DNA of 33,354 bases. It comes from an uncultured Gammaproteobacteria bacterium. GTDB taxonomy: Bacteria; Pseudomonadota; Gammaproteobacteria; Arenicellales; JAANXG01. How positions within the stretch are numbered: position 1 is the first letter of the stretch; every line of letters starts with the position of its first letter. Positions 6,233 through 8,785 of the stretch are shown in pieces. The position numbers and the translations under genes were made by a program. The notes under the pieces were generated by a model, which worked only from the letters and a program-made list of their open reading frames with translations, was not told the origin of the DNA and ran no database searches. The stretch lies in NCBI GenBank assembly GCA_947259395.1, contig CAMYMN010000038.1, positions 1 to 33,354 of the forward strand. The letters run 5' to 3'.

Positions 6233-6261
6233 TTGACATCTTTCAAGCAACAATTTAGAAT
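6233..6261 (+). promoter_or_regulatory. Sigma70-type promoter of the rubrerythrin operon
   Basis: A perfect -35 hexamer TTGACA at 6233-6238 is followed after exactly 17 bp by TAGAAT at 6256-6261, one mismatch from the -10 consensus. The predicted transcription start would be near 6268, leaving a leader of about 65 nt before the rubrerythrin start. This is the strongest promoter-like sequence noticed in the window, which suggests high transcription when not repressed. Confidence 0.8.
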
Positions 6262-6271
6262 CATTCTAAAT
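6253..6271. promoter_or_regulatory. 19-bp perfect palindrome, probable Fur-superfamily (PerR/Irr-like) operator
   Basis: ATTTAGAATCATTCTAAAT is a perfect 9-1-9 inverted repeat that swallows the -10 box and the predicted start point. Its core TTAGAATCATTCTAA resembles the PerR box (TTATAATnATTATAA type), and TTTAGAAnnnTTCTAAA is also the form of the alphaproteobacterial Irr/ICE motif; both regulators are Fur-superfamily. Position over the -10 implies repression. The downstream gene, a rubrerythrin, is a common PerR target. Which regulator binds cannot be told from this window, since no fur/perR gene is present. Confidence 0.75.
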
Positions 6272-6333
6272 CTGGAGATCTCGTATTTTCCAGTTTCTGT
6301 GCCCCTGAAATCATAGACATTCGGAGATCAATG

Positions 6334-6750
6334 ATGGAGTTAAAAGGCAGCAAGACTGAACAGAACCTAAAAGATGCCTTCGCTGGCGAATCACAAGCCA
6401 ATCGCCGCTATCTGTATTTTGCGGCCAAGGCGGACGTGGAAGGCTACAACGACGTATCCAGCGTGTTCCGCTCGACCGCGGAGGGCGAGACCGGCCACGC
6501 CCATGGGCATTTGGAGTATCTAGAGCAGGTCGGCGACCCAGCAACCGGCCTTCCTATCGGTGGGACCTCCGACAACTTGAAGGCGGCGATAGCAGGCGAG
6601 ACTCACGAGTACACGGACATGTATCCGGGCATGGCGGCGGCCGCACGCGACGAGGGCTTCGACGAGATTGCCGACTGGTTCGAGACCTTGGCCAAGGCTG
6701 AGCGTTCCCACGCGAATCGATTTCAAAAGGCATTGGATAGCCTGGACTGA
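6334..6750 (+). CDS. Rubrerythrin family protein without C-terminal rubredoxin domain
   Basis: Rubrerythrins are cytoplasmic di-iron proteins that reduce hydrogen peroxide. This 138-residue protein holds only the ferritin-like four-helix domain. Likely iron ligands are E19 ([10 protein letters not shown]), the pair E52-x2-H55 (EGETGHA), E89/E92 (AGETHEY) and E123-x2-H126 (AERSHA). The C-terminal rubredoxin domain of classical rubrerythrins, which brings in electrons, is missing, so an external donor is needed. ATG 6334 is preferred over the adjacent ATG 6331 because GGAG at 6323-6326 is then 7 nt away. It is the first gene behind the palindrome-controlled promoter and precedes an Fe-S oxidoreductase gene by about 90 bp, a candidate electron partner. 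Confidence 0.93.
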
Positions 6751-6783
6751 GACCCGTTAAACGCCACATGCGCTGCGAATTCC

Positions 6784-6808
6784 AAAGGGCCGGGTCATCC
6801 GGCCCTTT
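6784..6808 (+). terminator. Strong hairpin between rubrerythrin and the Fe-S gene (attenuator or partial terminator)
   Basis: AAAGGGCCGG (6784-6793) pairs perfectly with CCGGCCCTTT (6799-6808) over a 5-nt loop GTCAT. Only three T residues close the stem and GC follows, so it lacks a full U-tract. In the spacer between two co-directional genes it could act as a leaky terminator or as a 3' stabiliser, giving much more rubrerythrin mRNA than downstream message. Confidence 0.55.
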
Positions 6809-6838
6809 GCTACAAGGCGTTTTGATAGAAGCTTAATC

Positions 6839-8170
6839 ATGAATGAAACACCCCGCGAAGGAAGTCTCGAGGCACCCGAGAGGCATCCTCTAGATCTGCA
6901 TGACCCATCGTTTTACGATCAAGACGCACTGTTCAAGGAAATGGAGCGCGTCTTCGATATCTGCCACGGATGCCGCCGCTGTTTCAATCTGTGCAATGCC
7001 TTCCCAACCTTGTTCGATGCCGTCGACGAATCGGAGACCATGGAATTGGACGGAGTCGCGAAGGAGGTCTATTGGGATGTCGCGGATCACTGTTATCTGT
7101 GCGACATGTGTTTTATGACCAAGTGCCCCTACGTGCCTCCCCACGAGTGGAACGTTGATTTTCCGCACCTGATGCTGCGTGCTAAGGCGGTCAAACACAA
7201 GCAGGGCCGCTCAAAGACGCGGGATAAGCTGCTGACCAGCACTGACACCATCGGCAGGCTGGCCGGTATTCCGGTGGTCGTTAACATGGTGAATGCGACC
7301 AACCGCAGCACCATGGGCCGTAAACTGCTGCAAAAAACCCTGGGGGTACATCCGGCCGCGAAATTGCCGCGTTATCATCACAATACCTTCAGCAAGCGGC
7401 ACCGCAGAAACGATTCGCTGCGCGCCGAATCCACCGACGCAACCCGCGGACAAGTGGTGCTATTTGCCACTTGCTTCGGTCGCTACAACGACCCCTCGTT
7501 GGGTGAAGATTTGGTCGCGGTTTTCGAACACAATGGAATCTCAGTTATGCTGGCGGATAAGGAGCGGTGTTGCGGTATGCCGAAGCTGGAATTGGGCGAT
7601 TTCGAGGCGGTGACCAAGGCCAAGGAGACCAACATACCGATGCTCGCGGAATTGGTGGATGCGGGATGGGACATTGTGGCACCGGTGCCATCTTGTGTAT
7701 TGATGTTCAAGCAGGAATTGCCTTTGATATTTCCTGACGATGCGGCGGTCAAAAAGGTTCAACACGCGATTTTCGATCCATTTGAGTATCTGGCGCTGCG
7801 ACACAAGGCCGGTAAGCTGAATATCGATTTTGAAAACTCGCTGGGAAAGATCGCCTATCATGTTCCGTGTCATCTGCGGGTGCAGAATATAGGGTTAAAA
7901 ACCCGTGACATGTTGTCGCTGGTTCCGGACACCATCATTGAAGTGATCGAACGTTGTTCGGGACACGACGGTACCTATGCGGTCAAACAGGAATTTCATG
8001 AGACATCGATGAAGATCTGCCGCCCAGTGGTGAATCGGGTCCGCCAAATGGAGGTGGATCACTACATGAGTGATTGTCCGATGGCCGGCGATCAGATTGC
8101 CAACGGATTGCAGGACGGGAGTGAACCGAAACATCCGATGGCGTTGCTGCGTCGTGCTTATGGACTCTAG
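6839..8170 (+). CDS. GlpC/HdrD-like iron-sulfur oxidoreductase: two 4Fe-4S motifs plus two CCG-type domains
   Basis: The 443-residue cytoplasmic protein begins with two ferredoxin-type cysteine sets, C42-C45-C48-C52 (CHGCRRCFNLC) and C85-C88-C91-C96 followed by Pro (CYLCDMCFMTKCP). Two CCG-type domains follow, related to GlpC and heterodisulfide reductase subunits. The first has C212, CC at 244-245 (CCGMP) and C286. The second has C344 and a variant CSGHDGTY at 373-380, where one Cys of the canonical CCG is Ser. C394 and C413 are further conserved-looking cysteines. Such proteins shuttle electrons between quinones or flavoproteins and thiol or iron partners. Lying between a rubredoxin-less rubrerythrin and a DUF3501 gene, it is a plausible reductase for the rubrerythrin. 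It is not assigned as GlpC because no glpA/glpB is adjacent. The substrate is unknown. Confidence 0.85.
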   Translation: MNETPREGSLEAPERHPLDLHDPSFYDQDALFKEMERVFDICHGCRRCFNLCNAFPTLFDAVDESETMELDGVAKEVYWDVADHCYLCDMCFMTKCPYVPPHEWNVDFPHLMLRAKAVKHKQGRSKTRDKLLTSTDTIGRLAGIPVVVNMVNATNRSTMGRKLLQKTLGVHPAAKLPRYHHNTFSKRHRRNDSLRAESTDATRGQVVLFATCFGRYNDPSLGEDLVAVFEHNGISVMLADKERCCGMPKLELGDFEAVTKAKETNIPMLAELVDAGWDIVAPVPSCVLMFKQELPLIFPDDAAVKKVQHAIFDPFEYLALRHKAGKLNIDFENSLGKIAYHVPCHLRVQNIGLKTRDMLSLVPDTIIEVIERCSGHDGTYAVKQEFHETSMKICRPVVNRVRQMEVDHYMSDCPMAGDQIANGLQDGSEPKHPMALLRRAYGL

Positions 8171-8200
8171 ATGTGCAGTCACGAAAAACGGAGTGAGACA

Positions 8201-8785
8201 ATGAAAAAACTAACGCGCGAAGATTTGTATTCTCTCGAACAGTATGCCGAATTGCGTTCCGAATTTCGTACCCGAGTAATGGCACATAAGAAAAATCGGG
8301 TCGTGCGTATCGGAGATCATGCTACTTTGTATTTCGAGGATCGGCTGACGATGCAGTATCAGGTTCAAGAAATGCTTCGTATCGAACGTATTATTGAGCC
8401 GCACGGCAACGATGAGAAACTCAGCGCGTACAATCCGCTAATTCCCGATGGACAGAATCTGAAAGCGACTTTCATGATTGAGTACCAGGATGTTGAGGCG
8501 CGCAAGAAGGCCTTGGCACAGCTTGTTGATATCGAAGATCGAGTCTGGATCAGAGTGAATGGCTTTGAGCCGGTTTGGTCAATTGCCGACGAAGACCTGG
8601 AACGCGACACCGCGGATAAGACTTCGTCAGTGCATTTCCTGCGTTTCGAATTTTCACCTGCGGCGATACAGGCTGCCAAACAAGGCGCAGAGCTCAGTAT
8701 CGGTATCGAACACGATCACTATCAAATGGCGATCGATTCGCTACCGAAGCCGATAAAAAACAGCTTGCTTGATGATTTCGACTGA
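8201..8785 (+). CDS. DUF3501 family protein
   Basis: This 194-residue soluble protein matches what I recall of DUF3501: an N-terminal LTREDLYSLEQY, the block RVMAHKKNRVVRIGDHATLYFEDRLT around residues 27-50, and QVQEMLRIERI. It has no Cys-rich motif, signal or membrane segment. Its biochemical function is unknown. The start at ATG 8201 (MKKLTRED) is preferred because GAGTGAG lies just upstream; the frame also contains an ATG at 8171 that abuts the stop of the preceding gene. Tight spacing to the Fe-S gene and the likely shared promoter tie it to rubrerythrin function. I recall rubrerythrin, this Fe-S protein and DUF3501 occurring together in other bacteria; this was not checked here. Confidence 0.8.
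   Translation: MKKLTREDLYSLEQYAELRSEFRTRVMAHKKNRVVRIGDHATLYFEDRLTMQYQVQEMLRIERIIEPHGNDEKLSAYNPLIPDGQNLKATFMIEYQDVEARKKALAQLVDIEDRVWIRVNGFEPVWSIADEDLERDTADKTSSVHFLRFEFSPAAIQAAKQGAELSIGIEHDHYQMAIDSLPKPIKNSLLDDFD

Follow-up and report, generated by a model that had tools for sequence, protein, structure and literature searches.

Aerobic-type rubrerythrins were described by Cardenas, Quatrini and Holmes in 2016 as a lineage in which the rubrerythrin gene (rbr) is co-localised with genes for a DUF3501 protein and for RFO; the triple co-occurred in 185 genomes, and RFO was suggested to make up for the lost rubredoxin domain (PMC5114695). The trio has also been reported in Acidihalobacter (PMC7760498), in Sideroxydans, where it clusters with OxyR (PMC7852563), and in 2020 in protists, where mitochondrial targeting of the three proteins was predicted (PMC7050145). 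Ferriperoxin of Hydrogenobacter, a single-domain rubrerythrin, is a peroxidase that works with NADPH and ferredoxin-NADP reductase (FNR) (PMC3317640). On the regulatory side, Bradyrhizobium has a rubrerythrin-like gene that is repressed by Irr, and the Irr of Rhodobacter sphaeroides binds upstream of the rubrerythrin-like mbfA and of ccpA (PMC3413700). We analysed a 33,354-nt stretch of DNA (the window), which is contig C38 of a gammaproteobacterial assembly of 4.1 Mb in 222 contigs (86.6% complete) and carries rbr, RFO and DUF3501 behind a promoter overlapped by a perfect palindrome.

The locus holds the same three adjacent families as the system described in 2016, with a rubrerythrin that likewise lacks rubredoxin and an RFO whose nearest outside relative is likewise GlpC (PMC5114695). 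The original prediction, made from the DNA alone, had called the set uncharacterised. This does not hold, because the trio was named and the idea of electron delivery proposed in 2016, and a novel operon is ruled out by PMC5114695, PMC7050145 and PMC7852563. What we propose here is a switch, composed of an operator and a regulator. The accessible text of PMC5114695 makes no mention of PerR, the Fur family or a palindrome, and a link between this operator and regulator was not found in the open-access literature; subscription journals and regulon databases lay outside the search, and an earlier description is possible. We computed the operator, the regulator gene, their co-occurrence, the conservation of the operon and the presence of the operator at other peroxide genes. 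With a probability of about 0.7, we suggest that rbr-RFO-DUF3501 is the known aerobic-type rubrerythrin operon under a metal-loaded, PerR-like Fur-family repressor of the Irr clade and is induced by peroxide.

A predicted operator and its candidate Irr-like regulator

The palindrome, predicted to be the operator of an Irr/PerR-like regulator, lies at 6253-6271 (no strand assigned) and reads ATTTAGAAT-C-ATTCTAAAT, with two fully complementary 9-nt arms around a 1-nt centre (9-1-9). It spans the −10 box of a predicted sigma-70-like promoter at 6233-6261 on the forward strand, found by consensus scan, with the −35 box TTGACA at 6233-6238, a 17-nt spacer and the −10 box TAGAAT at 6256-6261. Both the perfect 19-bp palindrome containing the −10 box and the near-consensus promoter before three genes had been put forward in the original prediction and are confirmed; 11 of the 12 promoter consensus positions match. 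By itself the promoter carries little weight, because the scanned region contains six promoter-like sites when 2.5 are expected. When three mismatches were allowed, the 19-nt palindrome pattern occurred once in the window and in none of 100 dinucleotide shuffles, and the sole exact match to its 17-nt core in the whole assembly is the window site. The operator may resemble the Irr box, or ICE type.

The site was sought in a set of 274 genomes of the same class, 119 of which encode DUF3501; 115 loci were fetched, and three DUF3501 genomes (G079, G164, G194; G, C and L numbers denote genomes, contigs and loci) fall outside this set. With at most one mismatch, TTAGA-N5-TCTAA is present in the 250 bp before rbr at 84 of 110 loci, the window included, and in 0.76% of shuffles. 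This search upstream of orthologues, a check named in the original prediction, supports its view of the palindrome as a Fur-superfamily-like operator. The site is exact in 79 of the 84 loci and stands 40-120 bp before the rbr start codon in 74. The arms are fixed by the selection of sites and the centre is free; there, A/C-T-N-A-G/T is preferred. The 17-nt form with up to three mismatches was found in 63 of 110 loci (0.55 expected; none in the reversed sequence), and the window copy is one of eight exact matches to TTTAGAATNATTCTAAA. In a separate set of named loci, whose organisms overlap partly with those of the 110 loci, the operator is present in 50 of 71 readable loci, four of 75 having been dropped because their upstream coordinates, near contig edges, were faulty (L368, L407, L413, L419). 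Two tandem operators occupy one rbr promoter in G185 (C1:1748961-1749003).

The assembly was found to encode three Fur-family proteins, on contigs C8, C31 (the strongest FUR match) and C69 (Zur-like by resemblance). The gene of the C8 regulator (146 amino acids) itself carries TTAGAACAATTCTAA 16 nt before its ATG. The protein reaches neither Irr cut-off, scoring 122.2 bits with the IrrA model (cut-off 150) and 114 with Irr (cut-off 170), and it stays further below the PerR cut-offs (PerRA 83.8 against 200, PerRB 75.1 against 250, and others 58.9 against 180 and 30.2 against 200). By its sequence it is Irr-like, without being filed as Irr. Its best PDB sequence match is the Fur-family regulator 5nl9, and its annotated plasmid relatives are the IrrA proteins of Rhizobium and Rhodobacter, with about 36-40% identity. 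The residues H41, D89, H95, H97 and D108, which we equate with the regulatory metal ligands of PerR, are kept in all 37 regulator sequences compared (36 distinct genes, L090 and L185 being one gene counted twice; the genome's own Fur was not properly included). None of the 37 contains the CxxC motif of a Cys4 structural zinc site, and the middle His of the HHH motif is present in 32.

Across the 274 genomes, the Irr-like proteins (E of 3.3e-20 or better, in 111 genomes) are cleanly split from other Fur proteins, the best of which reach 6.5e-10. The Irr-like gene occurs in 87 of the 119 genomes with DUF3501 and in 24 of the 155 without it (Fisher p 1.2e-22), and the operator is present in 76 of 82 loci from genomes with the Irr-like gene (Irr+) and in 8 of 28 from those without it (Irr−; p 9.4e-11). 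Mapped on a 108-tip tree of RFO, the operator shows 12 changes and Irr 18; eight of the operator changes share their branch and direction with a change of Irr, for which random placement gives a probability of 1.9e-7. Irr presence tracks the tree modestly, with 18 changes compared with at least 20 (mean 24) in 200 shuffles. The Irr-like gene is located at the operon itself in 7 of 115 loci.

This regulator belongs to the same clade as that of the Irr/ICE-box regulon of Alphaproteobacteria. However, its host, to judge by the nearest relatives, belongs to the Gammaproteobacteria, it scores below both Irr cut-offs, and its target is a soluble aerobic-type rbr operon, joined in some genomes by katG or a peroxiredoxin. 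The likeness to PerR regulons lies in the kind of genes that bear the operator and in the five kept residues, if the ligand assignment is right; the absence of the CxxC structural zinc motif and PerR model scores below the Irr scores set it apart. A further comparison is offered by Acidithiobacillus ferrooxidans, an oxyR-less bacterium in which the PerR-like Fur-family regulator AFE1467, encoded beside ahpC, has been proposed to regulate the peroxidase, although the accessible part of that report gives no operator and does not mention rubrerythrin (PMC2621215).

Other operator-bearing genes and OxyR

The pattern TTTAGANTNANTCTAAA occurs at 48 places in 44 of the 274 genomes, compared with 9 for the reversed pattern. 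In a scan of 80 of the 111 Irr+ genomes, exact TTAGANTNANTCTAA was found at 66 places, compared with 8 for the reversed pattern. Of these 66, 38 precede rbr, 37 by position and one more (G110 C67) on another contig. The genes preceded by the other 28 include four katG (G000, G244, G184, G124), two di-haem cytochrome c peroxidases (G205, G132), two AhpC-type peroxiredoxins (G121, G099), one Fe/Mn superoxide dismutase, sodB (G242), and three gpmI (G132, G125, G191). The expected Pfam family was confirmed for 9 of these 12 named genes; the katG of G124 matches TIGR00198 and starts about 400 bp after its site, and the gpmI of G125 rests on resemblance. In the genome of the window (G000), the operator-bearing gene is a katG fragment at the end of contig C149, where TTAGACTTAGTCTAA lies about 170 bp before the probable ATG; the fragment has 67% identity over 61 amino acids and a TIGR00198 match of 6.9e-17, with no Pfam match. 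The di-haem cytochrome c peroxidases (L230, L332) recall ccpA under Irr in Rhodobacter (PMC3413700), and gpmI, which encodes a phosphoglycerate mutase and carries the operator in three genomes (L331, L341, L225), would be an odd member of a peroxide regulon.

Where the operator is missing, another regulator may stand at the operon. Of 28 Irr− loci, 8 have an OxyR-like LysR gene there; of 82 Irr+ loci, none does. All eight loci lack the Irr-like gene as well as the operator, and an OxyR-like gene is absent from every one of the 84 loci that bear the operator (p 3.8e-6). Two of the eight, L102 and L145, supplied the queries; the protein at L113 is only 33% identical, and at L055 there is a fragment at a contig end, about 3 kb distant. 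In the L102 protein a C-x8-C pair is kept, presumably in the place of the OxyR redox cysteines; that of L145 is without the second cysteine. With the OxyR model, the protein of the L102 genome scores 237.5 bits (cut-off 329), and the best match in the window's own, incomplete genome has an E value of 1.6e-27. As a genome-wide alternative OxyR did not separate cleanly: the model matches in 257 of 274 genomes, 14 of them over the cut-off, and we read these matches mostly as other LysR proteins. Because the model matches nearly everywhere, only the local adjacency was used.

The three genes and their conservation

The first gene, rbr (6331-6750, forward strand), encodes an aerobic-type rubrerythrin of 139 amino acids. 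It matches only PF02915 (1.9e-29) and the Ferritin-like family PF00210, confirming the absence of a rubredoxin domain claimed in the original prediction, and its PDB matches are 9onm, 4di0 and 8fuh (E about 1e-74) and sulerythrin 1j30 (9.2e-52). Like ferriperoxin and sulerythrin it is a single-domain rubrerythrin; the donor of ferriperoxin is the NADPH-FNR pair (PMC3317640). RFO (6839-8170, forward strand; 443 amino acids) is a GlpC-like CCG Fe-S oxidoreductase (PF02754, 1.1e-16), which does not exceed the GlpC equivalog cut-offs (242.5 against 278 bits and 175.6 against 279.9 bits). Its invariant cysteines in 15 aligned proteins (C42/45/48/52, C85/88/91/96, C212/244/245/286 and C344/373/413) are those of a multi-cluster electron carrier; the original prediction had described the product as a multi-cluster CCG oxidoreductase. 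Sequence comparison of RFO with the PDB gave no match at E 0.01; its structural model, with a mean predicted local distance difference test (pLDDT) score of 87.9, gave eight fold matches at E<0.001, to LutA-LutB, EtfD and HdrB-type subunits. The nearest named relative of the window's RFO, among the best 80 of 590 stretches, is from an uncultured Gammaproteobacteria metagenome-assembled genome (74% identity).

The third gene (8201-8785, forward strand; 194 amino acids) encodes the DUF3501 protein, as predicted (PF12007, 7.8e-69, scored on a longer reading from 8171). The start at 8201, 30 bp after the RFO stop and preceded by the ribosome-binding-site-like stretch GGAGTGAG, appears likelier than that at 8171. 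By sequence the protein matches 3fjv in the PDB (7.4e-59), and 3fjv is also the only fold match of its AlphaFold model (mean pLDDT 91.3) at E<0.001; further listed matches were rejected as fold relatives, with E of at least 0.008 and TM-scores below 0.3 by query length. Its invariant residues include no cysteine.

All three genes are present in 107 of the 115 fetched loci, and in all 107 they follow the order rbr-RFO-DUF3501 on one strand. Of the other eight loci, six end at contig edges, and two (L118, L130) have rbr and DUF3501 with no RFO at the locus. Named loci, taken as the best 80 of at least 590 confirmed stretches, show the same order in 74 cases. The scattering of orthologues that the original prediction would have counted against a joint unit was thus not found, and its view of the three genes as a conserved unit stands. 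The three proteins are under very unequal constraint: identity to the window across the 107 loci is 78-96% for rubrerythrin, 47-72% for RFO and 39-70% for DUF3501. In 13 of the 112 operons holding both RFO and DUF3501, these two are separated by a gene (about 100 codons) resembling EncFtn, encapsulated ferritin (L057, L063, L073, L079, L080, L086, L088, L097, L098, L105, L117, L124, L125). PF22277 was checked for two of the 13, and the nearest PDB entry for one is 3k6c. An encapsulin partner was rejected, as PF04454 was found in two of the 13 genomes and the other 11 had no shell match.

An 11-bp stem-loop without a long T-run lies at 6783-6809 (forward strand), in the 88-bp gap between rbr and RFO. 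Folding of this whole gap in the window surpasses that of shuffles by a moderate margin only (z −2.03; 7 of 200 shuffles equally good). Across 106 loci, the longest stem in the gap averages 7.9 bp, compared with 4.7 in shuffles, and reaches at least 8 bp in 58; for operator-containing stretches of equal length upstream of rbr, the mean is 6.5 bp and 28 of 102 reach 8 bp. In 101 of 106 gaps, some 40-nt stretch folds at −15 kcal or below, a figure without a control. At least four T within the 8 nt after the stem were found in 39 of 106 loci, suggesting that some of the hairpins may be ordinary terminators. The hairpin at 6783-6809 is possibly a partial terminator or a protector of the mRNA end, and may set rubrerythrin output above that of RFO. 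An Rfam scan of the window gave no match at the gathering threshold.

Proposed mechanism and alternatives

Binding, repression, signal and electron flow are what we infer. The C8 repressor would sit on the palindrome and, because this covers the −10 box, block transcription. By analogy with PerR, and in view of the ligand set and the genes sharing the operator, a rise in H2O2 would oxidise the Fe(II)-bound histidine site, the repressor would leave, and rbr-RFO-DUF3501, a katG and the repressor gene would be derepressed together. Rubrerythrin would then reduce H2O2 at its di-iron site, as its relatives suggest, and RFO, to judge by its invariant cysteines and modelled fold, would probably hand over electrons in place of the missing rubredoxin, as first proposed in PMC5114695. 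DUF3501 may be a docking or assembly partner, a guess only, since it has no invariant cysteine and its fold is matched by 3fjv alone. The peroxide or iron link that the original prediction saw in this palindrome-controlled unit is judged right. In a broader form, to which we give slightly better than even odds, many Gammaproteobacteria have a peroxide stimulon of rbr-RFO-DUF3501 with katG, ahpC, ccp or sodB by species, governed by a regulator of the Irr clade that behaves like PerR and binds TTAGA-N5-TCTAA, and OxyR is the evolutionary alternative at the rbr operon, each replacing the other.

Several observations weigh against the proposed peroxide switch. Eight loci have the operator with no Irr-like gene found, and six show the reverse; the Fisher tests ignore the shared ancestry of the genomes, and two of the eight shared changes on the RFO tree adjoin the midpoint root and, as a possible rooting artefact, should be discounted. 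The site precedes the Irr-like gene in 9 of 30 relatives (30 of 111 Irr-like genes covered). The excess of sites in the 80-genome scan is somewhat inflated, because at least five genomes (G205, G244, G121, G236, G131) were kept with sites already known, and 16 of the 28 places away from rbr either lie inside genes or lack an explanation, which is double the count for the reversed pattern (8). The complete katG of the window's own genome, on C90 (L245), has no site. A direct test of katG, suggestive at best, was not significant, with the site in 6 of 30 Irr+ and 1 of 27 readable Irr− loci (p 0.105; 3 of 60 loci unreadable), as was an earlier, cruder count of 4 of 23 and 0 of 17 (p 0.12; 20 of 60 unreadable). 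Finally, the C8 regulator scores best with Irr rather than PerR models, none over its cut-off, and the signal could therefore be heme or iron.

This last point leads to an unlikely alternative, in which the regulator is Irr in function and senses heme or iron sufficiency, the operon being derepressed in plentiful iron for iron safety and not in response to peroxide. Its closest models and annotated plasmid relatives, Irr and IrrA with up to about 40% identity, the middle histidine of HHH in most sequences, the binding of R. sphaeroides Irr upstream of mbfA and ccpA (PMC3413700) and the EncFtn-like iron-storage genes inside 13 of 112 operons would all fit. However, peroxide and superoxide enzymes dominate the nameable operator genes, among which no heme-synthesis or iron-storage gene was recognised (16 of 28 places being unexplained), and OxyR-like genes stand at eight Irr-less operons. 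That C31 or C69, the other Fur-family proteins of the assembly, uses the Fur-superfamily-like palindrome is much less probable still: it is the Irr-like gene that carries the site, tracks the operator from genome to genome and is found at the operon itself in seven loci, and neither the exact pattern nor its 3-mismatch form occurs near the C31 or C69 genes, where looser sites were not examined.

The division of labour within the operon could also differ from that proposed. RFO and DUF3501 might share the switch yet have a job of their own in repair or assembly, with rubrerythrin fed by FNR as in ferriperoxin (PMC3317640). Thermoproteales have rbr and DUF3501 without RFO (PMC5114695), and RFO is missing at 2 of the 109 untruncated loci. 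We find this doubtful, as the gene order is fixed, the company of the three genes is near-constant and the cysteines of RFO are those of an electron carrier with several clusters. Pure coincidence of palindrome and gene order is negligible and was ruled out by the shuffle and reversed-pattern controls and by the site kept upstream of rbr orthologues.

The proposal offers a peroxide-responsive switch that can be tested, with an operator and a candidate regulon, for a widespread, little-studied peroxide-defence set, which is predicted in the mitochondria of some protists (PMC7050145) and includes the functionally uncharacterised DUF3501. By this proposal, a regulator of the Irr clade would do the job of PerR outside Alphaproteobacteria and could trade places with OxyR. 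If true, the link of DUF3501 and RFO to peroxide defence would rest on regulation as well as on position.

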